Origin: an uncultured Bacteroidales bacterium
GTDB lineage: Bacteria > Bacteroidota > Bacteroidia > Bacteroidales > UBA932
Assembly: GCA_944322585.1 (NCBI GenBank)
Contig: CALUPB010000017.1
Span: forward strand, 1-59,331
Reading direction: 5' to 3'
Length of the DNA stretch: 59,331 nucleotides
The notes below the pieces were generated by a model. That model worked only from the letters and a program-made list of their open reading frames with translations. It was not told the origin of the DNA and did not search any database. A program made the position numbers and the translations under genes. The stretch's first letter is position 1, and each line of letters starts with the position of its first letter. Below are positions 36,848 through 55,196 of this stretch, in pieces.

Positions 36848-37795
36848 TTATTCAAGATATTTTGAGGATGCTTCCCTAAGGATTTTTTCCGCACCGAGCA
36901 TGAGGTCTTCGACTATGGCCCTGGCCGGTTCGATTCTTTTCACAAGGCCGGAGGACTCTCCTGCCATATAGCTTCCGTCCGGATCCCCTTCCTTTACGGC
37001 TTTCCGGAGAGCGCCTGTCCCGAATGAAAGTATTTCTTCCGATGTCACTTCCGGATTGGCTTCCATCTTCGCGAAAGTCATCGAGAAAGGTGTCTTGAGC
37101 GAGCGGACAGGATGGCCGAGGGTCTTTCCCGTCACAATGGTTGAAATGTCAGTAGCCTTGATTATCCGTTCCTTGTAATTCATGTGTACGGAGCATTCTT
37201 CAGCGGCAAGGAACCTTGTCCCGACCTGTACGGCGTCTGCGCCGAGAATGAATGCTGCCGCAGCTTCTCTCGGATCCGCTATGCCGCCCGCACCTATGAC
37301 GGGAATGTCTACCGCGTCCGCCACCTGGGGAAGAAGGGTCATCGTATGCAGTTCTCCTACATGACCTCCCGATTCAGCCCCTTCCGCTATTACGGCCGTA
37401 GCTCCGAGAGCCTGGACCTTGAGGGCAAGGGCTACCGAAGCTATGACGGGTATTACCTTTATGCCGGCCTCTTTCCACATTTCCATGTACGGAGCAGGTG
37501 AGCCCGCTCCGGTAGTGACGATTTTCACGCCTTCTTCAACGACCAGACGCGCAATCTCTCCCGCATTGGGGGCCTGTAGCATTATGTTGACGCCGAATGG
37601 CTTGTCCGTGAGTTCTTTGCACTTCCGGATCTCATCCCTGACAGCCTCTGTCCCGGCATTCACGGATGAAATAAGTCCGAGACCTCCTGCATTCGATACC
37701 GCAGAAGCGAGAGAAGCATCGGCAATCCATGCCATGCCTCCCTGGATCACAGGGTATCTGATACCGAGTATTCCGCAAATTCTACTTTTTATCAT
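36848..37795 (-). CDS. fabK: Enoyl-ACP reductase FabK (FMN-dependent, nitronate monooxygenase fold)
   Basis: This 315-residue TIM-barrel flavoprotein has the FabK/2-nitropropane dioxygenase motifs IRYPVIQGGMAWIAD, SNAGGLGLISS, GAGSPAPYM, AEGAESGGHVGEL and GAGGIADPREAAAAFILGADAVQVGTRF-type sequence. FabK reduces enoyl-ACP with NADH and FMN and replaces FabI. The position between fabH and fabF supports FabK over nitronate monooxygenase. The ATG at 37795 is used; a TTG at 37819 is less likely. Confidence 0.88.
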   Translation of the reverse strand: MIKSRICGILGIRYPVIQGGMAWIADASLASAVSNAGGLGLISSVNAGTEAVRDEIRKCKELTDKPFGVNIMLQAPNAGEIARLVVEEGVKIVTTGAGSPAPYMEMWKEAGIKVIPVIASVALALKVQALGATAVIAEGAESGGHVGELHTMTLLPQVADAVDIPVIGAGGIADPREAAAAFILGADAVQVGTRFLAAEECSVHMNYKERIIKATDISTIVTGKTLGHPVRSLKTPFSMTFAKMEANPEVTSEEILSFGTGALRKAVKEGDPDGSYMAGESSGLVKRIEPARAIVEDLMLGAEKILREASSKYLE

Positions 37796-37822
37796 GGTAT
37801 GATGCTGCAAATTTAACAAAAT

Positions 37823-38770
37823 TTACCATTCCAGAATGACTGCTCCTGAAATGAATCCGGCACCGAATGCACTCAGCGCAAGTATGTCGCCCGGCTTGAA
37901 GAGCCCTTTCCTGTTGCATTCGTCAAGAAGGATCGGACAGCTGGCCGATGATGAATTGCCGTGGCTTTCCACATTTGTAGGGAACTTTTCCTCCGGCTGT
38001 CCGAGAAAGTCGCGTATGGAATTGATTATTCGCATGTTCGCCTGATGGAGAAGGTACCACTTTACGTCTCCGGCATCCATTCCGAGTTTGTCGAGCAGAT
38101 ATTTTATGTCTCCTGAAGAAGCCTTTACCGCGAACTTGAACACGTCCTGTCCCTTCATCTGGAGCGGTACGTTTTCCTCTTCCTTGGCCACATAAGGGGT
38201 AGGTTCGAGGATTCTCTTTTCATAGAGCTTGTCGGTCGCGCTTGCGGCAGACAGCTTGATGCCCTTGATGTTGTCGCCTTCGGTAAGGACAGCTGCTCCT
38301 GCACCGTCCCCGAAGAGGACGCATACGCTGCGGTCTTTCCAGCTTGTCATCCTGGACGGTTCTTCCGCGCAGACTACAAGGACATTCTTTACCTTTCCTG
38401 CCTTGAAGTGGCTTTCCGCAATGTCGAGAGCGTATATGAAACCTGCGCATGCGCAGTTGATGTCAAGGCACGGACAGGTAGCTCCTATGGCTCCCTGTAC
38501 AATGCAGCTCAGGGATGGTGTCACGTATTCATTCACGACATTCGAGCAGATGATCATGTCAAGGTCCTCCGCTTTAATTCCTGCATTTTCAAGTGCCTTG
38601 ACCGAGGCTTCTGCAGCCATGTCTTCAAGCTTCTCGTCCGAAATGACATGCCTGTACCTGATGCCTGTCCTCGGATAGATCCATGCATCGCTCGTGTCCA
38701 GAAATTCGGACAGCATGTCGTTGGTCACAATCTTCTTTGGAAGTACGCTTCCTGTTCCTGTTATTTTCAT
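37823..38770 (-). CDS. fabH: 3-oxoacyl-ACP synthase III
   Basis: This 315-residue protein starts fatty acid synthesis by condensing an acyl-CoA with malonyl-ACP. The triad is Cys108 (NCACAGFIYAL), His242 (LLHQANMRI) and Asn272 (ESHGNSSSAS). GDGAGAAVL is the usual loop. The starter (acetyl, or branched acyl-CoA for iso fatty acids common in Bacteroidota) cannot be read off. It leads the operon and starts 27 bases before fabK's ATG region ends. Confidence 0.94.
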   Translation of the reverse strand: MKITGTGSVLPKKIVTNDMLSEFLDTSDAWIYPRTGIRYRHVISDEKLEDMAAEASVKALENAGIKAEDLDMIICSNVVNEYVTPSLSCIVQGAIGATCPCLDINCACAGFIYALDIAESHFKAGKVKNVLVVCAEEPSRMTSWKDRSVCVLFGDGAGAAVLTEGDNIKGIKLSAASATDKLYEKRILEPTPYVAKEEENVPLQMKGQDVFKFAVKASSGDIKYLLDKLGMDAGDVKWYLLHQANMRIINSIRDFLGQPEEKFPTNVESHGNSSSASCPILLDECNRKGLFKPGDILALSAFGAGFISGAVILEW

Positions 38771-41235: not shown

Positions 41236-41243
41236 TATCTTTG
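41236..41243 (+). promoter_or_regulatory. -7 element at the head of the ketosynthase cluster
   Basis: TATCTTTG begins on the base after the upstream stop codon and lies 30 bases before the first ACP gene. The -33 region has only GTTG at 23 bases, so strength is uncertain. It is the only promoter-like site ahead of the cluster. Confidence 0.45.
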
Positions 41244-41272
41244 CGGCCGTGACCGATAATTTTGTTGATATA

Positions 41273-41518
41273 ATGGAAAGGGATAGTCTGGCAGAGAAGG
41301 CAGGTGATATTCTTGCAGAGGAATTCGAGGTGGACAGGGCTCTCATTACGGAAGATGCCCCGTTGATGTCAACACTCGATCTGGACAGTCTGGATATTGT
41401 GGATATGGTGGTACTCGTAGAGAAGCATTTCGGTGTCAGAATGGCAAAGGAGGACTTCTCAAGGATAAGGACATTTGCCGATCTGTATGATATGATTGCC
41501 GGCAGGACAGCACTTTGA
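41273..41518 (+). CDS. Acyl carrier protein (cluster ACP 1)
   Basis: This 81-residue protein has the acyl carrier fold with the phosphopantetheine attachment Ser39 in TLDLDSLDIVDMV. It carries growing or starter acyl groups as thioesters. The DSLDIVD variant (in place of DSLDTVE) is common in ACPs of aryl polyene-type clusters. The ATG at 41273 gives the expected length; a GTG at 41249 is possible. It is the first gene of the twelve-gene cluster, 3 bases ahead of the acyltransferase gene. Confidence 0.9.
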   Translation: MERDSLAEKAGDILAEEFEVDRALITEDAPLMSTLDLDSLDIVDMVVLVEKHFGVRMAKEDFSRIRTFADLYDMIAGRTAL

Positions 41519-41521
41519 CCT

Positions 41522-42424
41522 ATGGGACGGAAGTGGGAAGGCAGGACGCGGGGAGGCCCGTTCGGATACATGTTCTTCATCCTGCTTGTCAGGATAGCCG
41601 GTATATGGGCGGCATATGCTTTCCTGAGCCTTGTCGTCCTGTATTTCATCCCCTTTGCCCCGTCGCAGACGCGCAGCTGTCGGATGTATGCAAGACGTAT
41701 CCTGGGAATGGGAAAGTTCCGGGCGGTCCTGTTTCCCGTACGTTCGTATTATGCTTTCGGGCAGTCCATCATTGACAGGGTGGTGTCTTCCATGGGGATG
41801 CGGGATCGGTTCGGATACAGTTTTGACGGCCACGGGAAAATCATGGAATATGTCCGCAGCGGCACAGGCTGTATCGTAATCGGGGCCCATGTAGGTTCAT
41901 GGCAGATGGGGGCGCAGTTCTTTGCCCCTAACGGTGCGAAGGTGAATGTCGTCATGTATGACAATGAATACCGGAATATAAAGAAAGTTCTCGAAAGGAA
42001 TACGGACCAGTGTCAGTTCAATGTCATCCCTGTCAATGAGGAGGACTGGTCATTCCTGATATCGATTACTTCTGCAGTGAGGAACGGTGAACTCGTCTGT
42101 TTCCAGGGGGACCGGTATATGAAGGAGGACAGGGTGTTCAGGGCAGAATTTCTCGGACATGAGGCTGAGTTCCCGGCCGGACCGTTCATTCTTGCCGCAA
42201 GACTCGGGTGTCCGGTGGTATTCTATTATGCCATGAGGGGCAGGGGAAGGAATTACAGGTTTATTTTCAGGACTCCCGGGATGGAGCTTGCTGACAGAGG
42301 AGACATGAAGGAGGAGGAATATATTTTCCGGGCGTACGTGGCTTCTCTGGAGTCGGTGGTCCGGGAATACCCGGAACAGTGGTTCAATTACTATGATTTC
42401 TGGAATTTATATTCGTCGAGATGA
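41522..42424 (+). CDS. LpxL/HtrB-like acyltransferase
   Basis: This 300-residue membrane-associated protein belongs to the lipid A acyltransferase superfamily. A hydrophobic N-terminal segment (about 15-45) precedes VIGAHVGSWQMGAQFF, the equivalent of the HX4(D/E) active site. Here the motif is His123-VGSW-Gln128: the acidic residue is replaced by Gln. Later motifs are CFQGDRYM (about residues 197-204) and EFPAGPFILAARLGCPVVF. Such proteins move acyl chains from ACP to a lipid or aryl acceptor, and homologues are standard in aryl polyene and flexirubin clusters. It overlaps the methyltransferase gene by 4 bases. Confidence 0.83.
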   Translation: MGRKWEGRTRGGPFGYMFFILLVRIAGIWAAYAFLSLVVLYFIPFAPSQTRSCRMYARRILGMGKFRAVLFPVRSYYAFGQSIIDRVVSSMGMRDRFGYSFDGHGKIMEYVRSGTGCIVIGAHVGSWQMGAQFFAPNGAKVNVVMYDNEYRNIKKVLERNTDQCQFNVIPVNEEDWSFLISITSAVRNGELVCFQGDRYMKEDRVFRAEFLGHEAEFPAGPFILAARLGCPVVFYYAMRGRGRNYRFIFRTPGMELADRGDMKEEEYIFRAYVASLESVVREYPEQWFNYYDFWNLYSSR

Positions 42425-43503
42425 TACACGGGAAATATCGGAAAGACCACCTGCCTGCACGGATAGCGCAGGAGCTGGCACATGTCATAGCATTCGGCCC
42501 CGTAATCTTCCAGGTGACAAGGGTGATGCTTTCCAGAGGCATCTTCCGGCTGATGAGGGACCGGTCAGACGGGATTACGCCGGCCGAAGCCGCGGAGAAG
42601 TCCGGACTGTCTGAATATGCGGCCAAGATCCTTCTGGAGTCTTCTCTGACTCTCGGAACCGTTCTGTACAATGAGGGACGTTATTCTCTGTCCAAGGTAG
42701 GATGGTCCATACTTGCCGATCCGATGGTGAAGGTAAATATGGACTTCAACCATGACATCAACTATAAGGGGATGTACCATCTGGAGGAAGCGCTCTGCAG
42801 CGGACGTCCGGAAGGTCTTGCGGAACTCGGACCGTGGAAGACGATCTACGAGGGTCTTCCATATCTTACGGAACGCCAGAAGGAGAGCTGGTTCGGCTTC
42901 GATCATTTCTATTCGGATTCCGCTTTTGACCAGGCTCTTCCGATAGTGTTTGCCGGCAGACCGTCCAGGATTATGGATATTGGAGGCAATACCGGCAGGT
43001 GGGCTATGAAATGCGTCTCGTATGATCCTGATGTGAGGGTGACCGTGGCGGATCTCCCGGGACAGGTGGCGATGATGGGAGAGCAGACTGCCGGATGCCC
43101 GGGCGCGGAACGCATAGATGCTTTCGGTACGGATATCCTTTCCGGTACCGATACTTTGCCGTCCGGTTATGACGTGGTCTGGATGAGCCAGTTTCTGGAC
43201 TGTTTTTCCGATACCCAGGTTGTGGATATACTTGAAAGGGCTGCTGCCGCGCTGGTTCCGGGAGGACGCATATTCATAATGGAGACCGTATGGGACAGGC
43301 AGAAATATTCTGCGGCATCTTTTGATCTTGCGCAGACAAGCGTATATTTTACTGTCATGGCCAACGGCAACAGCAGGATGTTCAATGCGGAAGATCTGGA
43401 TCGCCATATCTGTGCGGCCGGACTCGAGACGGTGGCAGTGACTGACGGACTCGGATATGCACACAGCCTGTATGAATGCAGACCGGCGGTGCCGGACAGA
43501 TAA
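42421..43503 (+). CDS. SAM-dependent methyltransferase with winged-helix N-terminus
   Basis: This 360-residue protein has an N-terminal helical dimerisation region like plant-type O-methyltransferases (GITPAEAAEKSGLSEYAAKIL, about 50-70). A Rossmann methyltransferase domain follows, with the SAM motif IMDIGGNTGRWAMK (about 182-195), VTVADLPGQ and the catalytic-region WMSQFLDCFSD. O-methyltransferases of this class (PF00891) methylate phenolic hydroxyls, which would fit an aromatic head group. The usual catalytic His of this class is not evident at WMSQFLDCF (often LKH.LHDW), so its activity may differ. It overlaps the acyltransferase stop as ATGA. Confidence 0.8.
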   Translation: MIHGKYRKDHLPARIAQELAHVIAFGPVIFQVTRVMLSRGIFRLMRDRSDGITPAEAAEKSGLSEYAAKILLESSLTLGTVLYNEGRYSLSKVGWSILADPMVKVNMDFNHDINYKGMYHLEEALCSGRPEGLAELGPWKTIYEGLPYLTERQKESWFGFDHFYSDSAFDQALPIVFAGRPSRIMDIGGNTGRWAMKCVSYDPDVRVTVADLPGQVAMMGEQTAGCPGAERIDAFGTDILSGTDTLPSGYDVVWMSQFLDCFSDTQVVDILERAAAALVPGGRIFIMETVWDRQKYSAASFDLAQTSVYFTVMANGNSRMFNAEDLDRHICAAGLETVAVTDGLGYAHSLYECRPAVPDR

Positions 43504-43523
43504 TTCATCAGAACGGAGGGAAA

Positions 43524-45308
43524 ATGAAAATATATGTTACAGGAGAAGGTATGGTGACGGCTCTCGGCAGGGGAGTGGACATGAATGTGAAGGCCATACG
43601 TGCAGGAAGGTCCGGTGTCGCCATGCATACGGGGCTGCTCAGGGACGGGGACGGCAGGGAGCTTCCCGTAATGTGCGGGATGGTTCCGGAGGATGTCATG
43701 CGGGAAATAAGTGAAGAGTATCCGTCAGGGAACGGGACTTATACGAGACTGGAGTTGCTTGCTGCGGCGGCTCTCGGCGAGGCCCTCGGCGAAGCCGGGA
43801 AAAAGGACAGGATAGGTTCCCGCCGCAGGAAAGCCATGATATTTTCTTCGACCAAAGGAAATACGGGCATCCTGACGGCAGAGTCATTGGATACGGAACT
43901 TCCCGACGATGTATTCATTGATGTTACGGCAAAGAAAACCGGCCGGATTTTCGGCTATTCTCCGGAAGATGTGTATACAGTCTCGAATGCCTGCATATCC
44001 GGAATTTCTGCACTCGTAGTGGCAAGAAGGCTTATTGGGTACGGACGGTATGATGAGGTGGCGGTAGTGGGGGTTGATGTTCTTTCGGAATTCATAGTCA
44101 GCGGGTTCGCTTCATTCAGATCCCTTAGCCCGGAACTGTGCCGTCCCTATGACAAGGAGAGGTGCGGATTGAATCTCGGGGAGGCTGCGGGAGCCGTAGT
44201 GCTCGCTTCCGGTCCGGAATACATGCCGTCCTGCGCTGTCATTTCCGGAGGTTCAATAAGTGACGATGCCAACCATATTTCCGGACCTTCCCGTACGGGT
44301 GATGCTCTTTATTTCGCCATGCGTGATGCAATGGAGGAGGCCGGTACCTCTCCTTCGGATGTGTCTTTTGTCAGTCTGCACGGGACGGCCACAGTCTACA
44401 ATGACGAGATGGAATCCAAGGCCGTATCCCTTGCCGGCCTTTCAGGGACACCGGTACAGAGTCTGAAACCGTATATCGGACATACTCTCGGAGCGAGCGG
44501 AGTGGTGGAGAGTATACTGTGCATAAGACAGCTGTTGTCAGGGGAAGTCTGGGGAACTCCCGGCTATAATGAGTCCGGTGTGCCTTTGCCTCTTGACGTA
44601 AGCGACTGTACAAGACAGGTTGCGATGAGGCATTGTGTCAAGACTGCGTCCGGTTTCGGCGGATGCAATGCGGCAGCGGTGTTCAGTCTTCCTGAATACG
44701 CCTCGGATACCTGTATCGGGAAACCTGCGGGATATGCCGTAATCCGTCATGTACGGCTCGACGGGCAGTCCCTTTTCCATGCATCGTCAGGTGCAGGGGA
44801 TTTTCATTCGGCAATCAGGGAAAAGTACAGGTCCATGGGGCTTGATGACATGAAGTTCTACAAGATGGACGACATGAGCAAGCTCGGGTACATAGCCTGC
44901 CATATGCTTTTGGAGGGACTGCAGTTCGCGCCTGAGGAAATGGCTGTAATTCTTCAGAACAGGAACGCATCCCTCGATTCCGACCTGAAGCATCTCTCCA
45001 ATATAACCCGGGGAGCCGGAGCAAGTCCGGCCGTATTCGTGTACACGCTGCCGAATGTGGCGTCGGGCGAGATTTCCATCCGGCATCGGATAAAGGGAGA
45101 GAACACTTTCTTCATTTCTGACCGTTACAGTAAGGTGAAGATGGAGGATTATGCGGCCATGGTGCTGTCGTCTTCGCATGCGAAGTACTGTATCGTAGGC
45201 TGGCTCGATTTCCTCAGAGGCACTTTCCTCGCTGATTTCGAGCTCCTTGAAAAGACTTCGGACAGCCCGCAGGAAGTCTCCCGAAACCGGCGTGAAGGGG
45301 AATTGTAA
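43524..45308 (+). CDS. Beta-ketoacyl synthase fused to a Cys-less chain-length-factor-like domain
   Basis: This 594-residue protein has a complete ketosynthase (about 1-395) with Cys157 (VSNACISGISAL), His286 (SLHGTATVYND) and Lys315/His320 (LKPYIGHTLGASG). The extra C-terminal part (about 405-594) reads MLLEGLQFAPEEMAVILQN, then SPAVFVYTLPNVASGEISIR and YCIVGWLDF. It looks like the half-ketosynthase (Ketoacyl-synt_2, chain length factor-like) domain and is similar to the free protein at 46842-47501, but with the Cys position lost (DRYSK region). This suggests a built-in KS/CLF pair that extends and measures a chain. The ATG at 43524 is chosen; the frame opens earlier inside the methyltransferase gene. 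Confidence 0.82.
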   Translation: MKIYVTGEGMVTALGRGVDMNVKAIRAGRSGVAMHTGLLRDGDGRELPVMCGMVPEDVMREISEEYPSGNGTYTRLELLAAAALGEALGEAGKKDRIGSRRRKAMIFSSTKGNTGILTAESLDTELPDDVFIDVTAKKTGRIFGYSPEDVYTVSNACISGISALVVARRLIGYGRYDEVAVVGVDVLSEFIVSGFASFRSLSPELCRPYDKERCGLNLGEAAGAVVLASGPEYMPSCAVISGGSISDDANHISGPSRTGDALYFAMRDAMEEAGTSPSDVSFVSLHGTATVYNDEMESKAVSLAGLSGTPVQSLKPYIGHTLGASGVVESILCIRQLLSGEVWGTPGYNESGVPLPLDVSDCTRQVAMRHCVKTASGFGGCNAAAVFSLPEYASDTCIGKPAGYAVIRHVRLDGQSLFHASSGAGDFHSAIREKYRSMGLDDMKFYKMDDMSKLGYIACHMLLEGLQFAPEEMAVILQNRNASLDSDLKHLSNITRGAGASPAVFVYTLPNVASGEISIRHRIKGENTFFISDRYSKVKMEDYAAMVLSSSHAKYCIVGWLDFLRGTFLADFELLEKTSDSPQEVSRNRREGEL

Positions 45309-45339
45309 CCGTATAAGGACAGAATAATTTCGTTATATT

Positions 45340-45597
45340 ATGGAAGAACTGACAGAAAAACTGAAAGCGCAGATTATAGAGGCGCTGAATCTCGAAGACA
45401 TCCGGCCGGAGGACATCGATACGGATGCCCCGCTGTTCGGAGCGTCAGGCTTGGGATTGGATTCCATAGATGCACTGGAACTGATCCTCATTCTCGAGAG
45501 AGACTACGGGATAAAGATGTCTAATCCGGGAGAGGGCAGGAAAATCCTTACCAGTGTCAGATCGATGGCAGACTATATCCAGGCCCACGGGAAATGA
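45340..45597 (+). CDS. Acyl carrier protein (cluster ACP 2)
   Basis: This 85-residue protein is an acyl carrier protein with attachment Ser42 in GLGLDSIDALELILILE. The pattern LFGASGLGLDSIDALEL is the one typical of polyene-cluster ACPs and differs strongly from ACP 1, so the two carriers probably serve different partners (for example starter loading and elongation). It overlaps the following ketosynthase by 4 bases, which suggests stoichiometric production with it. Confidence 0.92.
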   Translation: MEELTEKLKAQIIEALNLEDIRPEDIDTDAPLFGASGLGLDSIDALELILILERDYGIKMSNPGEGRKILTSVRSMADYIQAHGK

Positions 45598-46796
45598 ATG
45601 TCAGGATTCTTGTGACAGGTCTCGGGACTGTTTCTGCTGCAGGTCTGTCCCTTCATGACAATATTGTTGTTCTGGATTCTGGCAGGAGGGCCCTGTCTGC
45701 ATGTCCGTCATTTCTGGATACGGTGCTGCAGGTGCCTGTAGGCGAGGTCCGTGCAGACAATGCCGTGCTGAAGGAAAGGCTCGGTCTGCCGGAGGGCAGG
45801 ACAGTTACGCGTACCGCCCTGCTTGCGGCCCTTGCCGCTTCGGAGGCGGTACGTGATGCAGGGCTTGACCGTGGAATGCTTTCAGGGGGACGGACCGGCC
45901 TTATTGTCGGCACCAGCGTGGGAGGCATGGATCTGAGCGAAGAGTTCTATGGGGAATTCAGGAAAGACGGCGGGGGTGATACGGATCTGATAAGGATGCA
46001 CGACTGCGGAGCCACGACATCATTTGTCGCGGATTACCTCGGCATGACCGGTTTCCGCACTACGGTCAGTACTGCCTGTTCTTCATCCGGGAATGCGATA
46101 ATGCTCGGAGCAAGGATGATACGGGCAGGTCTGCTCGATACAGTGGTGGCAGGGGGGGCCGATGCCCTGAGCCGGTTTACCGTCAACGGGTTCAATTCGC
46201 TCAGGATACTGTCTTCATCTCCGTGCAGGCCGTTCGATGTTTCCCGCGACGGTCTCAATCTCGGAGAAGGCGCCGGTTTCATTGTCCTCAGAAAGGATTC
46301 TCCGGGTTCTGTCGGAGGGCATGAGCCGTACTGTATCCTGACAGGCTGGTCGAATACTGACGAGGCTTTCCATCAGACAGGAAGTTCCGCTTCCGGTGAA
46401 GGGGCGTTTTCCGCAATGTCGGAGGCCATGTCTGCTGCAGGACTGGAGCCGGATGACATAGATTATGTAAACGCCCACGGTACGGCGACTCCAGGCAATG
46501 ATCTTTCCGAAGGAACTGCAATAGGAAGGCTGTTCGGGAAAAGCGCGGTCTTCGGTTCATTCAAAGGGTATATCGGCCATACTCTTGCCGCATCGGAGGG
46601 TATCGAGGCCGCATTCTGCGCCATATCGGTAAGGGACGGTGTACTGTGGCCGAGTGCCGGCTTTTCGGAGGAGGATCCTGAAATAGGCATGTCACCCATG
46701 TGTGCATTACGGAGAGGATGCAGACTGAGGCATGTGGTTTCCAACAGCTTCGGCTTTGGAGGCAACAATTCCTCCCTCGTCTTTTCGGGACTTTGA
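45594..46796 (+). CDS. Beta-ketoacyl-ACP synthase (FabF-like, cluster KS 2)
   Basis: This 400-residue ketosynthase has the intact triad: Cys162 (VSTACSSSGNAI), His295 (NAHGTATPGND) and Lys324/His329 (FKGYIGHTLAASEG). It is a secondary-metabolism-type KS rather than housekeeping FabF: the N-terminus is divergent and shorter, and NHGT/KxxGH motifs carry Tyr as in the first cluster KS (GYIGH, PYIGH). It probably catalyses chain extension with ACP 2, to which it is coupled (ATGA). It is followed by the free half-ketosynthase gene. Confidence 0.9.
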   Translation: MNVRILVTGLGTVSAAGLSLHDNIVVLDSGRRALSACPSFLDTVLQVPVGEVRADNAVLKERLGLPEGRTVTRTALLAALAASEAVRDAGLDRGMLSGGRTGLIVGTSVGGMDLSEEFYGEFRKDGGGDTDLIRMHDCGATTSFVADYLGMTGFRTTVSTACSSSGNAIMLGARMIRAGLLDTVVAGGADALSRFTVNGFNSLRILSSSPCRPFDVSRDGLNLGEGAGFIVLRKDSPGSVGGHEPYCILTGWSNTDEAFHQTGSSASGEGAFSAMSEAMSAAGLEPDDIDYVNAHGTATPGNDLSEGTAIGRLFGKSAVFGSFKGYIGHTLAASEGIEAAFCAISVRDGVLWPSAGFSEEDPEIGMSPMCALRRGCRLRHVVSNSFGFGGNNSSLVFSGL

Positions 46797-46841
46797 AATG
46801 AACGGTCGTATACATTATAACATTTGATTGCACACCCGGGT

Positions 46842-47501
46842 ATGATTATAAGAGCAGCATACAGGATATGTCCGTCTGAAGGACAGGAACCGGATTACCG
46901 TGAGACAATTCCCGACGCCAACACCCGACGCAGAATGAGCCGTATTGTGAAGATGGGAGTGGCGTCCGCCCTCGGATGTCTTGATATGGTTCCGGGAACG
47001 GAACCGGAGGCCGTCATTACAGCCACGGCTCTCGGCTGCCTTGCAGATACGGAGAAATTCCTGATTGAAATCGGCGACAGGAAAGAAACGATGCTCAATC
47101 CGTCTCCGTTCATCTATTCCACATTCAATACGGTTGCAGGTCAGATTGCACTTGTCAGAGGCATTCGGGCGTACAATATGACATATGTGAACGGCGGATG
47201 CAGTTTCAATGACGCGATGCGTGATGCCGCCCTCTGCATTGCGGAAGGTATGGACAATATCCTTGTCGTCGCCTACGACGAGAATACGCCGACCGCGGAA
47301 ACTGTCATGCGACGTATTGGCAGGGAATATATCGGCGATGCCGTGTCAGTGGCGTTCCTGTTGTCGGGGGATCTGCCCGGAACGCACCGTATTCCGGATT
47401 CTTTCATCTGCGGGGCGGGGATTGACCCGGAGGACATGTCGGGCAATATCCGGGAGGCGGAGCGCCTTTACCGGTTTTATATGGAGGATGACGGGAAATG
47501 A
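46842..47501 (+). CDS. Free half-ketosynthase (Ketoacyl-synt_2, chain length factor-like)
   Basis: This 219-residue protein covers only the N-terminal half of the thiolase fold. NPSPFIYSTFNTVAGQIALV (about 86-105) and YVNGGCSFNDAMRDAA align with the SPT..NA.AG and nucleophile regions of ketosynthases, with Cys120 in the nucleophile position. The second half, with both active-site histidines, is absent. Such proteins (PF13723) are found in aryl polyene clusters as partners of full ketosynthases. The ATG at 46842 is preferred to the TTG at 46824. It overlaps the deacetylase by 4 bases. Confidence 0.78.
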   Translation: MIIRAAYRICPSEGQEPDYRETIPDANTRRRMSRIVKMGVASALGCLDMVPGTEPEAVITATALGCLADTEKFLIEIGDRKETMLNPSPFIYSTFNTVAGQIALVRGIRAYNMTYVNGGCSFNDAMRDAALCIAEGMDNILVVAYDENTPTAETVMRRIGREYIGDAVSVAFLLSGDLPGTHRIPDSFICGAGIDPEDMSGNIREAERLYRFYMEDDGK

Positions 47502-48259
47502 CAGTCTGTGTATTCATCGTATTTCCGGTCCTGGTGGCTGCCGGCCTTGTTTTTCTTGTATGGTCCTGTGCTTCCGTAAGTTCGGGAGTCTGGACAAAGA
47601 CCGTCTGCAACAATCTTGAACCTGGGAAGACAGTGCTGACTTTCGATGACGGTCCGGATCCGTCGGCGACGCCCCGGATATTGGATATTCTGAAAGAGAA
47701 TAATGTACATGCATATTTCTTCGTGACGGGGGACAGGGCGGTCCGGTATCCGGAACTTATACGGAGAATGGTGCTGGAAGGGCATACGGTCGGGAACCAT
47801 ACGTTCCATCATTCACCGCTTTTCCCCCTTTCGGGAGTCCCGTGCATGGTGGCTGAACTTCAAGCCTGCGATTCAGCGGTTTCATCGGCTCTTGAAGGCG
47901 CAGACGTGCCGTCAGGAGTCCTTCCCGGTGCCCGTAAGGAAGACCATCCTGCGGCAAAGAGCGGGCAGAAACTGTTCAGACCGCCTTTCGGTGTCACGAA
48001 TCCGGATGTGGCAAGGGCTCTCGTAAAGACGGGACACACGGCCGTGGGTTGGGATATCCGCAGCTACGATACGATAATGATTAAAGACGGAATGTCTCCT
48101 GAAAAGGCCGGAAAGGCAGTCCGTAAATGTGTCAGGAGGATATTGCGCAGGATGCATCCCGGGGCGGTGGTACTTCTGCATGACCGTCTTGAATATTCTC
48201 CGATGCTTCTCCGGGAGCTTATGGACGGGCTCAGGAAGGGAGAATGGAAACTTGCATAG
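47498..48259 (+). CDS. Polysaccharide deacetylase (NodB) family protein
   Basis: This 253-residue protein has an N-terminal membrane anchor (about 4-24) and a NodB domain. Catalytic and metal-site motifs are TFDDGPDPSATP (Asp50, Asp51), HTVGNHTFHH (His101, His105), FRPPFG and VLLHDR. Members remove N- or O-acetyl groups from glycans and act in the periplasm. An insertion (about 125-155) separates the middle motifs. In this cluster it may process a sugar attached to the product. It is coupled to the half-ketosynthase (ATGA). Confidence 0.85.
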   Translation: MTVCVFIVFPVLVAAGLVFLVWSCASVSSGVWTKTVCNNLEPGKTVLTFDDGPDPSATPRILDILKENNVHAYFFVTGDRAVRYPELIRRMVLEGHTVGNHTFHHSPLFPLSGVPCMVAELQACDSAVSSALEGADVPSGVLPGARKEDHPAAKSGQKLFRPPFGVTNPDVARALVKTGHTAVGWDIRSYDTIMIKDGMSPEKAGKAVRKCVRRILRRMHPGAVVLLHDRLEYSPMLLRELMDGLRKGEWKLA

Positions 48260-48297
48260 CTTTTTGCAGATACTTGCAGTTAATTTGCTATTTTTGC
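48252..48297 (+). promoter_or_regulatory. Phased TTGC motifs and promoter-like site before lolA
   Basis: Five TTGC motifs start at 48252, 48264, 48274, 48285 and 48294, about one helical turn apart. The last lies in a TATTTTTG box (48289-48296), with TTTG (48263-48266) 22 bases upstream. This may be an internal promoter with an operator array, or chance. Confidence 0.35.
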
Positions 48298-48311
48298 AGA
48301 CGTTTAAGGTA

Positions 48312-48911
48312 ATGCGAAGAAGTCTTGTAGCCATATCGTTATTCTTGTCCGCCGCGGTTACGATGGCGGTGGGACAGGAGTGGAAGCATGTCGGTGATGC
48401 TTCTGCTGTCATAGAGGCGTTCAATGAGGCGAATTCGAAAGTGACATCCATAGAATGCAGTTTCAGACAGGAAAAATATGTGGATGTCCTTGTGGAGAAA
48501 TCCGTTTCGGAAGGGTTCTACGGTTTTTATGCTCCCGACAGTGTCGTCATACGGTATCTTGTCCCTGAAGAATATTCCATAACCGTGTCAGGCGGTGTCA
48601 TGAGGTTCGTTTCAGCCGGAAAGACGTCCGAAACGGAGATTGCTTCTGACAGAAGGTTTGCGCAGCTGACGGAAATCATCCGTTCCGGAGGTATCCCTTC
48701 CGTCCGGCAGATACAGGATTACAAGATAGATGCTTACAGTGACGGAAAGTCCTACCGGCTTGTTCTGGCTCCTCTGCGGCGCAAGTCAGGCTGTATAGAG
48801 GCGGTGATCGATGCCGGCGACATGTCCCTCGCTTCTTTCAGGATAATGGAGGGAGGTCAGGACTATACGGAATTCATTTTCACGGACAAGCGGATAAAGG
48901 TACATGAATAA
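48312..48911 (+). CDS. LolA-like outer membrane lipoprotein carrier
   Basis: This 199-residue protein has a signal peptide (MRRSLVAISLFLSAAVTMAVG) and a LolA-type beta-sheet fold: VTSIECSFRQEKY, YGFYAPDSVVIRYLVPEEY, IDAYSDGKSYRLVLAPL and a final EFIFTDKRI. LolA carries lipoproteins across the periplasm; cluster-encoded LolA homologues in polyene loci are thought to carry the aryl-lipid product. It starts 52 bases after the deacetylase and overlaps the glycosyltransferase gene by 8 bases. The ATG at 48312 begins the signal peptide. Confidence 0.82.
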   Translation: MRRSLVAISLFLSAAVTMAVGQEWKHVGDASAVIEAFNEANSKVTSIECSFRQEKYVDVLVEKSVSEGFYGFYAPDSVVIRYLVPEEYSITVSGGVMRFVSAGKTSETEIASDRRFAQLTEIIRSGGIPSVRQIQDYKIDAYSDGKSYRLVLAPLRRKSGCIEAVIDAGDMSLASFRIMEGGQDYTEFIFTDKRIKVHE

Positions 48912-50187
48912 GGTAATGAGCCCGCGTGAGTGCAAGGAGCATTTGGAGGAATTGGGTGCCCTTGTCGTTGTCCCGACATACAACAATGCCGGGACAATAG
49001 GTACTCTTATGGCCGGGCTGATAAAATATGCTTCGGATATTCTCGTCGTAGATGACGGATGCACCGATGTCACCGGAGAGATACTGTCCACATTCGGGTT
49101 CAGGGAACTTCATGATACCGGTATCCGGATGAAAGGCGCCGGGAGGGAATTCCGATCTGTTTCCGGACAGGTTCCGGAACAGGCGGTCCTGTCCGGAAGG
49201 ACTGTCCTGAAGCATCCGTCCAATATGGGGAAAGGGCGTGCCCTCAAGGATGCTCTGGTGCTTGCATCGGCGACGGGATGGAAATATGTGGTTACCATCG
49301 ATGCGGACGGCCAGCATTTCCCGTCCGATATACCTGCATTTGTGGATGCTTTACTTGCCGGGCCGGACTCTCTTTATGTCGGGAGCAGAAATCTCAGAAG
49401 CGAGAATATGCCCCGGAGAAACACTTTTGCCAACAGGTTTTCCAATTTCTGGTACAGGGTGGAGACAGGTATCCGCCTTGATGATACGCAGTGCGGATTC
49501 AGAGTGTATCCTCTCGGCAGGGCAGACTATTCGGGGTGGTATTATACTTCGTTGTATGAATTCGAACTGGAAGCGATTGTGTATGCCGCATGGTCCGGAA
49601 CCGAAGTGCGCAATGTACCTGTGAATATCCATTATCCTCCGGAGGGGGAGAGAGTGTCGCATTTCAGACCGGTGCGGGATTTTACGCGCATCAGCCTTCT
49701 GAACACCGTCCTTGTGCTGGTCTGCCTGTTTTATGTCTGGCCAAGGAATCTGTGCAGGAAACTCTCTTGGAGGAAAATCAGGAAGTTCTTTGACGACAAT
49801 CTTTTCCATGTCAGGGATTCCAATCTGAAACTGACCCTTTCCTTCTGGCTCGGCATCTTCATAGGCCTGCTGCCTTTCGGCGGTTACCATTTCGTGACCG
49901 CCGTCTTCCTGGCTCATGTGCTGAAGCTGAATACTCTTGTCGCGGGGGCGTTCACCCTTATCAGCATTGCTCCGATGATGCCTTTCATCATATTCTGCAG
50001 TTGTTGGACAGGCAGCCTGCTGCTCGGGCATCCCATACCTTTTTCCGGATTCGTGATGTCGTTTGAGGATGTCGGCAATATGCTGGCAGACTACATAATA
50101 GGAGGAATCGTGTTTGCTGCCGCGGCAAGTTCCCTGTGTGCGGGCATATGTGCGGTCCTGCTTTCAGTGTTGAGGAGGAGAAGATGA
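48904..50187 (+). CDS. Glycosyltransferase family 2 fused to DUF2062
   Basis: This 427-residue protein has a GT-A domain at about 17-255: VVVPTYNNAGTI, VVDDGCTD, NMGKGRALKDAL and the metal-binding IDADGQH (133-137). An insertion of about 35 residues lies between the first two strands' loops (about 65-100). The C-terminal DUF2062 region (about 290-425) holds three or more membrane helices (LGIFIGLLPFGGYHF). This fusion is well known in Bacteroidota flexirubin and aryl polyene clusters and would glycosylate a lipid-linked product at the inner membrane. It overlaps both neighbours. Confidence 0.88.
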   Translation: MNKVMSPRECKEHLEELGALVVVPTYNNAGTIGTLMAGLIKYASDILVVDDGCTDVTGEILSTFGFRELHDTGIRMKGAGREFRSVSGQVPEQAVLSGRTVLKHPSNMGKGRALKDALVLASATGWKYVVTIDADGQHFPSDIPAFVDALLAGPDSLYVGSRNLRSENMPRRNTFANRFSNFWYRVETGIRLDDTQCGFRVYPLGRADYSGWYYTSLYEFELEAIVYAAWSGTEVRNVPVNIHYPPEGERVSHFRPVRDFTRISLLNTVLVLVCLFYVWPRNLCRKLSWRKIRKFFDDNLFHVRDSNLKLTLSFWLGIFIGLLPFGGYHFVTAVFLAHVLKLNTLVAGAFTLISIAPMMPFIIFCSCWTGSLLLGHPIPFSGFVMSFEDVGNMLADYIIGGIVFAAAASSLCAGICAVLLSVLRRRR

Positions 50188-53100
50188 CGGGGATGTTTGT
50201 CAGTATATACCGTTTTTTCAGGAAGCACAGTGTACTGATGTATTTCCTGCTGGGGCTGTCCGTGGTACTCATGGGGCTGTCTCTTGTCAGACTGAAGTTC
50301 GACGAGAATATAATGTCTTTCCTTCCGGAGACCGGAGACGCCCGTCAGATGACAGAAGTCTTCAACAATCTGAAAGTCAGTGACAGGTTTGTCGTAATGT
50401 TCAGCCAGACCTGTGGAGAGCCGGACTATGACCTGCTCGGAGAGGCGGCAGACGCCTTTGTCTCTGCCGTCCTTTACGGGGATGGGGCGGATCTGGTAAG
50501 CGATACCGTCGTGTCGGTGGATGATGAGGCAGTATCGCATGCTGCCGGATTCATTTTTGACCATCTTCCCGTCTTTCTTGATGAAAAGGCATATTCAAGG
50601 TTGGATTCTCTCATGACTCCGTCTGCTATGGAAAGGCAGATGGAGGACATCAGGGATGCGCTTCTTTCTCCGGCAGGAGCTTTCATCAAGGATTATGTCA
50701 TGCGCGATCCTCTCGGGATAGCCGTTCCTGTGCTGTCATCATTGTCGGACATGGATACGGACGGCGGTTATCGGATGGCCGGTGACTGGATACTGTCCCC
50801 TGACGGGAATACCCTGCTGTGTTTCCTGACCCCACGCTTCGGTACAGGTGAGACCGGACATAATGACAGGCTCGTCTCAATCGTGGAGGATGCCATAGAG
50901 TCATTGTCAGTGCAGTATCCGTCAGTGACTGCAGAATATTTTGCGGGGCCTGCCGTCGGGGTATACAATGCCCGCCAGATCAAGAAGGATACATTCATGA
51001 CTTCAGCATTTGCAGTAGTGCTCATAGCGGTCTTTGTCTTTCTCGCGTTCAGGAGGCGCGGCTCTGTCCTGCTCATTTTTCTCCCGGTAGTGTACGGGAT
51101 CCTGTTTTCCCTTTCTGCCGTAAGTCTGCTGAAAGGGTGTATTTCAGCGATAGCGGTGGGGACAGGTGCAGTGGTTTTGGGAATAGCCCTGAGCTATTCG
51201 ATACACGTCATCGTTCACCAGATGCATGTCAGGACCGTGGAACAGCTCGTGAGGGAACTGGCTTTCCCTCTGACAGTGGGAAGCATGACTACGATAGGTG
51301 CGTTCGTCGGGCTCCTGTTCACTTCTTCTTCCCTGCTGAAGGATTTCGGTCTGTTCGCTTCCCTTGCACTTGTGGGGACCACTCTTTTCACCCTTGTGTT
51401 CCTGCCGCATTTCCTCCGGCCTATGTCGGATGTCCCTGAGACTCCGATAATGAAGGGCATAGGAAAAATCAACGGTTACGGTTATGACAGGAACATGTGG
51501 GTTATCGCCGTCATCGTGCTGCTGTTCATTGTCAGCCTGTTCACTTCCCGTAATGTGGGCTTCAACGCCGACATGATGAGTATCAATTACATGCCTGAAC
51601 ATCTCAGGGCAGCCCAGGAGAAACTCGAGACCATGTCGGGAGACTCGTCGGAGACTGTGCTTTTTGTCAGTACGGGCAAGGATCTTCCTTCGGCAGTGAG
51701 TGTATATGCAGAGACCGGCAATATGCTTGACAGTCTTCTGACAGCGGGCCTGATAAGGCATTTCTCGTCTGCGGAGAGGTTTGTAGTCCCTTATGACGTC
51801 CAAAGGGAAAGGGTGGAGGTATGGAATTCTTACTGGACCGTGGACAGGATACGTGCTGTGACTGAACTGGTCGGCAGGGAAGCGGCCGATGCCGGTTTCA
51901 GGACAGGGGTCTTCAGCAAAGGCCTTGAAGATATGCTGTCAAGGGAATACGGCATCATGGACTATTCGGCGGAAAGTGTCCCTCCTCTGCTTTCAGACAT
52001 GGTCTGTTGCTCCGATTCCCTCGTCATGCTGGTGTCGGCCGTGTCCCTCGGACCTGAAATGAAAGCCGGGGTATATCCATTCTTCAACGGTACCGGTACT
52101 GTAATTTACGACAGAAGCTGGTTCGCCGGTTCTGCAGTAAGATCGATGTCGGAAGATCTTGACCTGATACTCTGGATCTCATCCATGATCGTGTTTCTCG
52201 GCCTCTGGCTGTCTTACCGCAGGCTCGAACTTGCCCTGCTGAGCTTCCTCCCGATGCTTGTCACATGGGTGATGATAGTCGGACTCATGGGACTGACAGG
52301 CATGGAGTTCAATATAGTCAACATCGTCATATCCACATTCATATTCGGCATAGGCGATGATTTCAGCATATTCATTACAGACGGACTGTCCAGACGATAT
52401 GCTACCGGAAAGGACATGCTTGCCGCGCACAGGACTGCCATATTCTTCTCCGCATTCACAATCGTTGCCGGGATGGGGGCGATGATAGCGGCAGGTCATC
52501 CGGCACTGCATTCCGTGGGGGCCATATCCCTTGTCGGGATGCTGGCGGTCCTGCTGGTCGCCTATACACTGCAGCCGCTTCTGTTCAGGCTTTTCGTTAC
52601 AGGGCCGGTCTCGGAAGGAGGTCATCCGTATACCATCGCGGGTATTCTGATGTCCGCTCTCCTGTGGCTTGAGTTCCTTGCAGCCTGTCTTGTGACCATT
52701 CTGGCTGTGCTTGTCCTGCTTCCTGTTCCTGTTTCCCGTTTCAGAAAACAGGTCATCGTGAGGTATATGGCCTGTATCGGCTGCCGCTGCGTGCTCTTCA
52801 CTGCGCCTATTGCAAAAGCCAGGTTGCGCAATGTCTGTGGGGAGGACTTTTCCAGACCGGCAGTGGTGGTGGGCAACCATCAGTCATTTCTTGACATAGT
52901 GTGGATGATGGCGCTGAGTCCGAAACTGCTCATAGTGGCCAAAGGCTGGGTCCGCAAGGTTCCTGTCTTCTATCCTGTCGCACGTTTTCTCGGATTTTAT
53001 TATACTGACAGCGGATATGATTCCATTACGGAGGAGTTCGGGAAAAGGCTCGGCGAAGGCTGGAGCCTGGCCGTCTTCCCGGAAGGGACGAGAGAGACTG

Positions 53101-53789
53101 ACGGCAAGATACACCGGTTCCACAAGGGCGCGTTCTATATTGCGGAAAGGCTCGGGATAGACATAGTACCTGTCGTTATGTACGGGAACGGTCTGATATT
53201 CCCTAAAAATGCTCCTCTCAATATGGCAGAAGGCGTATCGGTTACGGAAATCCTTCCGAGAGTGCAGACCGGAGCAGTGCCGTACAGGGAACTGGCCCGG
53301 AATGTCCGGGAGCTGATAAGGGAAAGATATTCTGCAATCGGACAGGAATTTGCGACCGTTTCGAATCCGTATTATTCATGGGCGCTGCGCAGGAGTATGA
53401 TGTACAGGGGGACAGAGGCTGAACGTTCGACGAAAGCCATGCTGCGCTGCACTGACATGGCGGCTTTGGATGCGGGCCTTCCGCGCAACGGCAGGATCCT
53501 GCATCTCGGATGCGGGATGGGTCAGGCAGATATCCTGTTGAAAATGCTTGCTCCCGGCAGGATGATCACGGCCGTGGATGCCGATGCGGAAATTATGGAT
53601 ATGGCACGCCATAATTATCTGTGTACACAGGGTCTGGAATTCATATGTGCCGATCCGGATACGTTTCCGGCTGAAGGATATGACGCCGTCATATACGGAA
53701 GCTGTCCTGTATCATTCGGCTCCGGCGGAAATTCCGGAACGCCATTCCCCGGGCAGCCGTCCTCCTGCCATTCAAGATATACGAAATAA
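50184..53789 (+). CDS. RND/MMPL exporter fused to a PlsC-type acyltransferase and a methyltransferase-like C-terminus
   Basis: This 1201-residue protein has three parts. Residues about 1-815 are an MMPL/RND exporter with two halves, each with a membrane helix, a large periplasmic domain and a helix bundle (GTGAVVLGIALSYSIHV in the first, FIFGIGDDFSIFITDG in the second). Residues about 870-1085 are a PlsC acyltransferase with NHQSFLD near 897 and FPEGTRETDG. The rest is a short methyltransferase-like Rossmann start with ILHLGCGMGQADI near 1104 and TAVDADAEIMDMA. It ends after about four strands, so a full methyltransferase is not present. The start overlaps the previous stop (ATGA). Confidence 0.85.
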   Translation: MTGMFVSIYRFFRKHSVLMYFLLGLSVVLMGLSLVRLKFDENIMSFLPETGDARQMTEVFNNLKVSDRFVVMFSQTCGEPDYDLLGEAADAFVSAVLYGDGADLVSDTVVSVDDEAVSHAAGFIFDHLPVFLDEKAYSRLDSLMTPSAMERQMEDIRDALLSPAGAFIKDYVMRDPLGIAVPVLSSLSDMDTDGGYRMAGDWILSPDGNTLLCFLTPRFGTGETGHNDRLVSIVEDAIESLSVQYPSVTAEYFAGPAVGVYNARQIKKDTFMTSAFAVVLIAVFVFLAFRRRGSVLLIFLPVVYGILFSLSAVSLLKGCISAIAVGTGAVVLGIALSYSIHVIVHQMHVRTVEQLVRELAFPLTVGSMTTIGAFVGLLFTSSSLLKDFGLFASLALVGTTLFTLVFLPHFLRPMSDVPETPIMKGIGKINGYGYDRNMWVIAVIVLLFIVSLFTSRNVGFNADMMSINYMPEHLRAAQEKLETMSGDSSETVLFVSTGKDLPSAVSVYAETGNMLDSLLTAGLIRHFSSAERFVVPYDVQRERVEVWNSYWTVDRIRAVTELVGREAADAGFRTGVFSKGLEDMLSREYGIMDYSAESVPPLLSDMVCCSDSLVMLVSAVSLGPEMKAGVYPFFNGTGTVIYDRSWFAGSAVRSMSEDLDLILWISSMIVFLGLWLSYRRLELALLSFLPMLVTWVMIVGLMGLTGMEFNIVNIVISTFIFGIGDDFSIFITDGLSRRYATGKDMLAAHRTAIFFSAFTIVAGMGAMIAAGHPALHSVGAISLVGMLAVLLVAYTLQPLLFRLFVTGPVSEGGHPYTIAGILMSALLWLEFLAACLVTILAVLVLLPVPVSRFRKQVIVRYMACIGCRCVLFTAPIAKARLRNVCGEDFSRPAVVVGNHQSFLDIVWMMALSPKLLIVAKGWVRKVPVFYPVARFLGFYYTDSGYDSITEEFGKRLGEGWSLAVFPEGTRETDGKIHRFHKGAFYIAERLGIDIVPVVMYGNGLIFPKNAPLNMAEGVSVTEILPRVQTGAVPYRELARNVRELIRERYSAIGQEFATVSNPYYSWALRRSMMYRGTEAERSTKAMLRCTDMAALDAGLPRNGRILHLGCGMGQADILLKMLAPGRMITAVDADAEIMDMARHNYLCTQGLEFICADPDTFPAEGYDAVIYGSCPVSFGSGGNSGTPFPGQPSSCHSRYTK

Positions 53790-53801
53790 ACCGATAATAT
53801 C

Positions 53802-55106
53802 ATGAAATTCATACCAGATCCGAAAATCCAGTTCGGTACGGCCGGACAGATAAGGGCCTTTCAGGAAGAGAGACTGGCTGAAACTGTGGAATATCTTGCC
53901 TGTAATTCGGCCTTTTACCGCAGAATGTTTGCAGACAAGGGAATAGACCCGCATTCCATAAGAAAGACAGAGGATCTGCTCTCCCTGCCTCTGACCTCGA
54001 AGGATGACCTTCAGAGATACAGCGAAGATTTCATATGCGTTCCGAAAGACAGTATAGTGGATTATGTGACAACTTCCGGCACTCTCGGTGATCCGGTCAC
54101 TTTTGCCCTCACGGATGCGGACCTGGAACGTCTTGCATACAATGAATGGCTCTCGTTTTCCACGTCCGGATGCACCGGCTCCGACATAATGCAGCTTATG
54201 ACGACCATAGACCGGCGTTTCATGGCAGGACTCGCATATTTTCTCGGGGCGAGGAAGATGGGGATGGGCGTCGTCAGGGTCGGGAACGGCATACCGGAAC
54301 TGCAATGGGACACCATACGCCGTATCCGGCCCGACTGCTGCATGGTTGTGCCGTCATTCCTGATGAAATTGGTGCAGTATGCAAAGGAGAACGGTATCGA
54401 TTATCGGGGAAGCTCCCTGAAAAAGGCGATCTGTATCGGCGAAGCGTTGAGGAAACCGGATACATTCGGACTCAGTACTCTCGGAGAACGTATCCACGAA
54501 GTCTGGCCGGAGCTGGAACTGTATTCTACCTATGCTTCAACTGAAATGCAGTCATCCTTTACCGAGTGTGCCTGCCACAAGGGGTGCCATATTCCGGTAG
54601 ACCTTATAATAGTAGAGCTTCTGGATCAGGAGGGCAATCCGGTTCCGGACGGGGAACCGGGGGAAGTGACGATAACCACACTCGGAGTGGAAGGCATGCC
54701 TCTGTTGAGATTCCGGACGGGAGACATTTGCATCCGGTATGAAGGACAGTGCGGCTGCGGGAGGAATTCGGCCCGTCTGAGTTCCGTCATAGGGCGACGC
54801 AGCCAGATGATCAAGTTCAAGGGAACGACTCTTTATCCTCCTGCACTGTTCGATGTCCTGGACAATATACCTGAAATAACCAACTATATCGTCGAGGTCT
54901 ATACGAATGACCTCGGAACGGATGAGGTGCTTGTGCGGATAGGCTGCAATGACCATAGCGATGCTTTTCTGAAGAAAGTGAAGGACATGTTCCGTTCGAG
55001 GGTGAGAGTGGCACCGTCCGTCAGTTTCGAAAGTATCGGGTATATAGCCAAGCTGCAGATGCCTCCGATGTCCCGCAAGGCGGTGAAATTCATCGATATG
55101 AGATGA
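53802..55106 (+). CDS. Phenylacetate-CoA ligase-like adenylate-forming enzyme
   Basis: This 434-residue protein belongs to the PaaK/F390 synthetase group of AMP-forming ligases. Motifs are VTTSGTLGDPVTF (P-loop, about 89-101), YASTEMQ (about 243-249), FRTGDIC (about 303) and the linker IGRRSQMIKFKG. Cys residues in ECACHKGCH and QCGCGR form a metal-like site often seen in this group. It would activate an aromatic or other acid as acyl-AMP and pass it to CoA or to an ACP. It is the last gene of the cluster; the next gene has its own promoter. Confidence 0.88.
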   Translation: MKFIPDPKIQFGTAGQIRAFQEERLAETVEYLACNSAFYRRMFADKGIDPHSIRKTEDLLSLPLTSKDDLQRYSEDFICVPKDSIVDYVTTSGTLGDPVTFALTDADLERLAYNEWLSFSTSGCTGSDIMQLMTTIDRRFMAGLAYFLGARKMGMGVVRVGNGIPELQWDTIRRIRPDCCMVVPSFLMKLVQYAKENGIDYRGSSLKKAICIGEALRKPDTFGLSTLGERIHEVWPELELYSTYASTEMQSSFTECACHKGCHIPVDLIIVELLDQEGNPVPDGEPGEVTITTLGVEGMPLLRFRTGDICIRYEGQCGCGRNSARLSSVIGRRSQMIKFKGTTLYPPALFDVLDNIPEITNYIVEVYTNDLGTDEVLVRIGCNDHSDAFLKKVKDMFRSRVRVAPSVSFESIGYIAKLQMPPMSRKAVKFIDMR

Positions 55107-55188: not shown

Positions 55189-55196
55189 TATCTTTG
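55189..55196 (+). promoter_or_regulatory. -7 element of galM
   Basis: TATCTTTG lies 86 bases before the galM start. The -33 box is not clear. It is preceded by about 80 bases after the ligase stop. Confidence 0.4.

Follow-up and report, generated by a model that had tools for sequence, protein, structure and literature searches.

An operon and a distant satellite locus that probably encode one flexirubin-type aryl polyene pathway in an uncultured Bacteroidales bacterium

The window analysed here is the complete contig C17 (59,331 bases) of an uncultured Bacteroidales genome, labelled G000, whose assembly comprises 2.87 Mb in 33 contigs with a completeness of 93.5% and a contamination of 0.11%. 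Its plus strand carries an operon of twelve genes at 41273-55106 (Table 1). We consider it probable that this main operon and a five-gene satellite operon on contig C3 together encode a single flexirubin-type aryl polyene pathway. The system is ordinary in kind; it is unusual in being split, in its seemingly mixed ancestry, and in being lyase-less as far as the assembly shows.

Complementary gene content at two loci

The twelve genes of the main operon overlap or are separated by at most a few tens of bases, and all twelve frames are open across 13.9 kb. A preliminary description of this DNA had proposed an operon of twelve genes with a set of named domains, which is borne out by gene calls and by domain scans, every domain type listed for the operon being found. 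Its assignment to the aryl polyene/flexirubin kind also stands, the operon supplying the elongation and export part of such a pathway: FlxY in the main operon and the ketoreductase FlxB in the satellite score over their cutoffs, and Phocaeicola vulgatus holds the same set of genes in one block. No ketoreductase, dehydratase, thioesterase or ammonia-lyase had been seen in the operon, and in agreement with this none of the twelve proteins matched a family of these kinds in the domain scans. To the earlier picture we add a half-ketosynthase-like domain at the C-terminus of ketosynthase A (KS_A), and PlsC-type and shortened methyltransferase domains in the MMPL protein. The operon ends, earlier said to be marked by promoters, do carry TAnnTTTG motifs, at 41236 and 55189; we take this motif to be a Bacteroidales promoter element. 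A further copy lies at 41257. As the motif is frequent in the window (22 copies on both strands, about 0.19 per kb per strand), the internal copy before lolA may be due to chance.

Ketoreductase and dehydratase genes, which the preliminary description advised seeking elsewhere in the genome, were found in the satellite. A ketosynthase search of G000 returned four matches, one of them on C3 (256,627 bases), where the five genes lie on the minus strand (G000:C3:171186-175870), unlinked to the main operon. At least 80 kb of C3 flank the satellite on each side, and the right end of C17 is 4.2 kb past the end of the main operon, so the two are at least 84 kb apart. A ketoreductase, a dehydratase and an ammonia-lyase in an adjoining part of the same locus had been named as a finding that would refute the earlier reading; this is not what we observed, the first two being present but far off and the third not found.

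The satellite ketoreductase, the only FlxB over cutoff in G000, has intact catalytic residues by motif comparison. A TATATTTG motif stands before KS_C, and the G+C content of the satellite (0.532) is similar to that of the main operon (0.528). Compared with the in-cluster homologues of genome G056 (L027), identity is 63% for the ketoreductase, 61% for KS_C, 41% for the first dehydratase against dehydratase DH1 (E 6e-29) and 39% for the second against dehydratase DH2 (E 4e-17). Pfam matched only the second of these hotdog proteins, at the cutoff (23.6 bits, cutoff 23). Among solved structures, the second found FabZ/FabA-type matches and 6qsr_A at E 0.0086, and the first had no relevant match beyond a hotdog protein at E 1.

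The FAD oxidoreductase of the satellite resembles carotenoid desaturases and isomerases, but scores far below their family cutoffs, and has a single partial match among solved structures (3ka7_A, E 5.8e-8). Our guess is that it is a polyene isomerase or desaturase. Matches at E <= 1e-25 occur in 25 of 120 genomes, G000 included, and pieces were seen in G003, G005, G061, G088 and G093. As it is a usual partner of such clusters, the enzyme is not likely to replace the missing lyase; that candidacy was rejected on finding it also in the lyase-bearing genomes G016, G039, G056 and G105.

With regard to reduction and dehydration, the preliminary description had looked to housekeeping enzymes of fatty acid synthesis such as the nearby fabZ. 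FabZ/FabF/FabK/FabH genes do lie 2.5-6 kb upstream of the operon, and C23:26394-27110 encodes a FabG-like protein (225 bits, below the cutoff for FlxB). However, the satellite encodes a dedicated FlxB and a pair of hotdog dehydratases, which makes a housekeeping supply needless, and we give this explanation very little chance. The upstream genes themselves (window 35122-38770, minus strand) are of FabZ-like, FabF, NMO/FabK-like and FabH types.

Motif comparison showed complete Cys-His-His sets in KS_A as well as KS_B, and the serine in both acyl carrier proteins (ACPs). Used as a single query against solved structures, the free half-ketosynthase found 7f28_A at E 0.0025, while a profile of six sequences reached 7f28_A at E 1.5e-11 and 6qsp_B at E 2.9e-7; we take 6qsp to be the ApeO:ApeC pair. 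The C-terminal 196 residues of KS_A align with half-ketosynthases at an hhalign probability of 94.5% (E 7.4e-8); in G039 and G037, among other relatives, the corresponding part is a gene of its own. It is hhalign that carries this assignment, since Pfam matched only one of five members of the domain, and weakly (E 0.031); a profile of the domain found nothing relevant among solved structures. The operon thus appears, from these alignments, to hold two ketosynthase/half-ketosynthase pairs, one of them fused. Excerpts of the work on Escherichia coli describe ApeC as a chain-length factor working with ApeO (PMC8253772).

Table 1 Features of the main operon in the window and of the satellite operon on contig C3. 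SAM, S-adenosylmethionine; CLF, chain-length factor.
Feature	Position	Strand	Basis
TATCTTTG motif before operon	41236..41243	+	motif search
Acyl carrier protein 1, Ser in DSL	41273..41518	+	PF00550
LpxL-type acyltransferase (ApeD-like)	41522..42424	+	PF03279
FlxJ-like methyltransferase	42421..43503	+	NF053543, 525 bits, under cutoff 560; SAM motif kept
Ketosynthase A (KS_A, ApeO-like) with C-terminal half-ketosynthase/CLF-like domain	43524..45308	+	best solved relative 6qsp_A
Acyl carrier protein 2	45340..45597	+	PF00550; NF006617, 82.5 bits, cutoff 70
Ketosynthase B (KS_B), Cys-His-His complete	45594..46796	+	domain scan and motif comparison
Half-ketosynthase, chain-length-factor (ApeC) homologue	46824..47501	+	PF13723; profile search
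Polysaccharide deacetylase family protein	47498..48259	+	PF01522; motifs
TATTTTTG, possible internal promoter before lolA	48289..48296	+	motif search; within chance count
LolA2-like periplasmic carrier	48312..48911	+	NF053544, 95.4 bits, under cutoff 125; without Pfam match
GT2 glycosyltransferase with DUF2062	48904..50187	+	PF00535, PF09835
MMPL exporter fused to PlsC-type acyltransferase and shortened methyltransferase domain	50184..53789	+	domain scans
FlxY acyl-CoA ligase (PaaK-like; 4-coumarate-CoA ligase family)	53802..55106	+	NF053551, 681.7 bits, cutoff 520
TATCTTTG, motif of next gene (aldose epimerase, PF01263)	55189..55196	+	motif search
KS_C, ketosynthase	C3:171186-175870	-	only KS_C in G000
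First dehydratase, 185-residue hotdog protein	C3:171186-175870	-	ExxAQ-type Glu motif
Second dehydratase, 172-residue hotdog protein	C3:171186-175870	-	GHFPG-type His motif
CrtI/CrtD-like FAD oxidoreductase	C3:171186-175870	-	domain scans
Ketoreductase FlxB	C3:171186-175870	-	407.6 bits, cutoff 340

Starter supply and the proposed pathway

No match to the aromatic amino acid lyase family PF00221 was found in the assembled 93.5% of G000. The family is matched in 78 of the 120 genomes and FlxB exceeds its cutoff in 30, G000 being counted among the 120 in both cases. Ten of the 30 FlxB genomes have no PF00221 match, in seven all matches exceed 600 bits, and in the other 13 a match scores 510-550 bits, a division by score that is our reading and no test of substrate. 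The 510-550-bit lyase adjoins FlxB or other cluster genes in ten of these 13 (in G117 as a piece); this was not seen for G005, G061 and G118. Four of the ten lyase-less FlxB genomes are more than 90% complete (G000, G013, G053 and G060).

Other routes to a starter were also considered. Chorismate lyase (UbiC, PF04345) was found in none of six genomes searched, G000 included, and was rejected as a starter source on these grounds. G000 has a single PF08541 protein, the FabH of the window, and hence no second ketosynthase III that might act as DarB, which carries this domain; the dialkylresorcinol (DarA/DarB) half of a flexirubin pathway was thus not found, although DarA was not searched for. Of the cluster thioesterase (ApeK-like) no close copy was found in G000, the best match to that of G056 being a 28% identical protein on C6. 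The DUF3261 (LolB-like) protein of G056 had no match among the window proteins and was not searched for genome-wide. One phosphopantetheinyl transferase is present in G000, and an outer-membrane delivery set of acyltransferase, LolA and MMPL proteins is found in the main operon.

Because FlxY is kept and no lyase was found, the starter is likely to be an aryl acid from outside. As no ammonia-lyase and only one ketosynthase III (FabH) were found, the product is probably no standard tyrosine-started flexirubin. The preliminary description had entertained a different aryl or acyl lipid, and this holds in the narrower form just given, within the aryl polyene kind. The broader form, in which a fatty acyl starter gives a plain polyenoyl or acyl lipid and the ligase and methyltransferase serve other substrates, would fit with the failure to find either lyase and with the long branches of the main-operon proteins; set against the FlxY match far above cutoff and the retention of a FlxJ-type methyltransferase with its SAM motif, it strikes us as quite unlikely.

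For the flexirubin-type pathway that we favour, we infer the joint action of the loci, the substrate, the role of the flavoenzyme and the final structure from gene content. FlxY would activate an aryl acid, the best candidates being 4-coumarate and similar hydroxycinnamates taken up from the surroundings, and KS_C, given an initiating role by analogy with ApeR, would start the chain. KS_A and KS_B with their chain-length-factor halves would then elongate it with malonyl units on the two ACPs, each round being completed by FlxB as reductase and the two hotdog proteins as dehydratases, so as to give a conjugated polyene. For these rounds of elongation, reduction and dehydration, the model is the aryl polyene scheme as far as it is set out in excerpts of PMC8253772. 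The CrtI-like flavoenzyme may adjust the polyene, the FlxJ-type methyltransferase may methylate the ring, and the acyltransferases, GT2-DUF2062 protein, LolA and MMPL proteins would attach the acid to a lipid and carry it to the outer membrane. The product would most likely be an aryl polyene acid or ester.

Ancestry, relatives and condition of the main operon

Quick trees, in which long branches are in play and groups were named after the trees were seen, assign the two loci to different cluster lineages. For KS_C (65 rows), the satellite genes of G000, G013 and G053 group in a clade of 18 rows (SH-aLRT 100), most of which are modules from G000's own genus; the clade stands separate from P. 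vulgatus and Bacteroides, and the ketoreductase tree (64 rows) is concordant (17 rows, support 95). In the KS_B tree (65 rows), on the other hand, the main genes of the same three genomes belong to an 11-row clade (support 100) that includes P. vulgatus, Bacteroides, Parabacteroides and G056. The acyltransferase tree (82 rows) puts G000 and G013 in a 16-row set (100), where the rows nearest to these two are P. vulgatus and Bacteroides among others. Forcing either gene into the arrangement of the other was rejected (p-AU 1.3e-8 for KS_C, 4.8e-63 for KS_B). The FlxJ tree was left out of the lineage inference because long branches join there. The simplest reading of these trees is seemingly that the pathway was assembled from two cluster lineages.

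A FlxJ-alignment scan of named genomes yielded at least 565 confirmed relatives, and the analysis continued with the best 80. By title, all but one (an 'uncultured bacterium') are Bacteroidota, and many are rumen or gut assemblies. Contig-cut loci included, these best 80 hold a ketoreductase in 47 cases, KS_C in 49, the first dehydratase in 61, a thioesterase in 50, a lyase in 25 and the FAD oxidoreductase in 12. Within the subset of 33 loci with at least 21,000 bases and a KS_A, the counts are 26 for the ketoreductase, 27 each for KS_C and the first dehydratase, 25 for the thioesterase and 14 for the lyase. Three of the 33 are without both ketoreductase and KS_C, and none is without ketoreductase, KS_C, first dehydratase, lyase and thioesterase all together, which makes the stripped operon of the window unusual. 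A deacetylase, as in the window, is present in eight of the best 80 loci, seven of which have lyase, KS_C and thioesterase. The eighth, L116, lacks ketosynthases along with all the genes tested for; it consists of an acyltransferase-FlxJ-ACP-deacetylase-LolA-GT2-MMPL block (3900-9000), and the 16 kb of sequence covered there gave no match to a ketosynthase.

A similar stripped operon occurs in G013, of the same genus as G000, with a similar satellite on another contig; their distance is unproven because the contigs end only about 10 kb and 2 kb off. Between its MMPL gene and FlxY, G013 encodes a 551-residue protein of the AAT (acyl-CoA:6-APA acyltransferase) family (L034, 15442-17097), a place where the window has no gene. 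G053, from another family, has its cluster genes over four contigs (C8, C5, C18 and C9; L119, L118, L032 and L120), one set comprising KS_C and ACP, another the FAD oxidoreductase, ketoreductase and a LolA-like gene, with the main genes and FlxY on two more. In G056, KS_C, ketoreductase and both dehydratase homologues lie inside the main block. Modules of KS_C-ACP-dehydratase-thioesterase-MMPL-FAD oxidoreductase-ketoreductase were seen in L127 (G025, 6627-13835) and L134 (G091, 9480-16741), apparently a longer version of the satellite that brings its own exporter. At L093 (3530-8714), a KS_C (81%)-ACP-FAD oxidoreductase module lies immediately upstream of a cluster that has a ketoreductase and a KS_C (57%) of its own.

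Several observations weigh against the explanation that we favour. A lyase could be unassembled in a genome that is 93.5% complete. The best solved relatives of KS_B are ordinary FabF enzymes, with 6qsp_A eighth, and the FlxJ-like and LolA2-like proteins score under their cutoffs (525 vs 560 and 95.4 vs 125 bits). As the loci fall in different cluster lineages, the satellite might serve something else. The main-operon proteins of G000 and G013 are on long branches; in the window, end branches against medians are 0.99 vs 0.19 for KS_B, 1.07 vs 0.20 for the methyltransferase and 1.15 vs 0.37 for the acyltransferase. The acyltransferase motif reads HX4Q, where 11 others have HX4E (one of 12 changed), and the MMPL-methyltransferase protein, which is some 80 residues shorter than its G013 and G056 counterparts, stops inside its methyltransferase domain. 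This condition of the main operon is compatible with a change at the end of the molecule, or else with attachment steps that are beginning to decay.

A more radical alternative is that the main operon is decaying and makes no polyene, after loss of the lyase, ketoreductase, dehydratases and thioesterase, and that the satellite serves another, smaller pathway. The far-above-median branches, the changed acid residue and the shortened MMPL protein would all suit such decay, and the module at L093, next to a cluster already equipped with KS_C and ketoreductase, would suit a separate satellite. We nevertheless judge this unlikely: the twelve frames are open, core catalytic residues are intact, G000 has neither a further KS_C nor a further FlxB over cutoff, and a similar operon and satellite persist in G013, even if the assembly shows a broken KS_A frame there.

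If the two loci do form one pathway, a cluster that looks incomplete has the steps it lacks encoded elsewhere, at a locus that seems to descend from another lineage. The present case also makes it possible to test the idea that clusters lacking an ammonia-lyase draw their aromatic starter from outside the cell. A further scenario, which we put forward only tentatively, is that some Bacteroidales dropped the tyrosine ammonia-lyase, rebuilt the pathway from two lineages at two loci, and now depend for their pigment on outside hydroxycinnamates, for example from plant food in the gut; if true, the ring of this outer-membrane pigment would be of dietary origin. In the flexirubin and aryl polyene literature, surveyed in part, no description of a split, lyase-less cluster was found.

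Comparison with known systems

The published systems are compared here as far as excerpts of the source papers describe them. In Chitinophaga pinensis, FlxA is a tyrosine ammonia-lyase that makes 4-coumarate from tyrosine, and FlxY is a 4-coumarate-CoA ligase that activates it and also takes cinnamate, indoleacrylate, indolepropionate, 3-chlorocinnamate and phenylpropionate (PMC3992019). Likeness to the flxA-flxY cluster is seen in FlxY and FlxB, over their NCBIfam cutoffs, in the FlxJ-like and LolA2-like proteins, under theirs, and in the shared deacetylase, glycosyltransferase, exporter and several ketosynthases (PMC3992019). Unlike C. pinensis, G000 has no detected FlxA-type lyase or second ketosynthase III; and where G000 splits the polyene core over two distant loci, C. 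pinensis splits the polyene genes from the dialkylresorcinol genes (PMC3992019).

The apeA-R cluster of E. coli shares with the present system two ACPs, a ketosynthase with a half-ketosynthase, an LpxL-type acyltransferase, LolA, an RND/MMPL exporter, a ketoreductase and two dehydratases (PMC8253772). Its predicted starter is 4-hydroxybenzoate, supplied by UbiC and activated by ApeH (PMC8253772), whereas UbiC was not found in G000. Closer to home, an arylpolyene-type cluster of the gut Bacteroidales species Bacteroides xylanisolvens has been likened to the flexirubin cluster of C. pinensis (PMC12940132); by that description it is of the flexirubin kind, as here.

The nearest comparison is with the clusters of P. 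vulgatus and Bacteroides (L042, L046 and L049), which share the order of the main genes and have main-operon proteins 45-71% identical over best segments. BVU_1014, an LpxL homologue of B. vulgatus, is said in an excerpt of PMC5850320 to belong to an aryl polyene cluster. P. vulgatus ATCC 8482 (L042) holds in one row lyase-ketoreductase-KS_C-ACP-acyltransferase-methyltransferase-DH1-thioesterase-KS_A-ACP-KS_B-half-ketosynthase-deacetylase-LolA-DUF3261-DH2. The lyase, ketoreductase, KS_C, dehydratases and thioesterase belong to the block in these clusters, whereas G000 has its ketoreductase, KS_C and two dehydratases on C3 and yielded neither a lyase nor a close cluster thioesterase.

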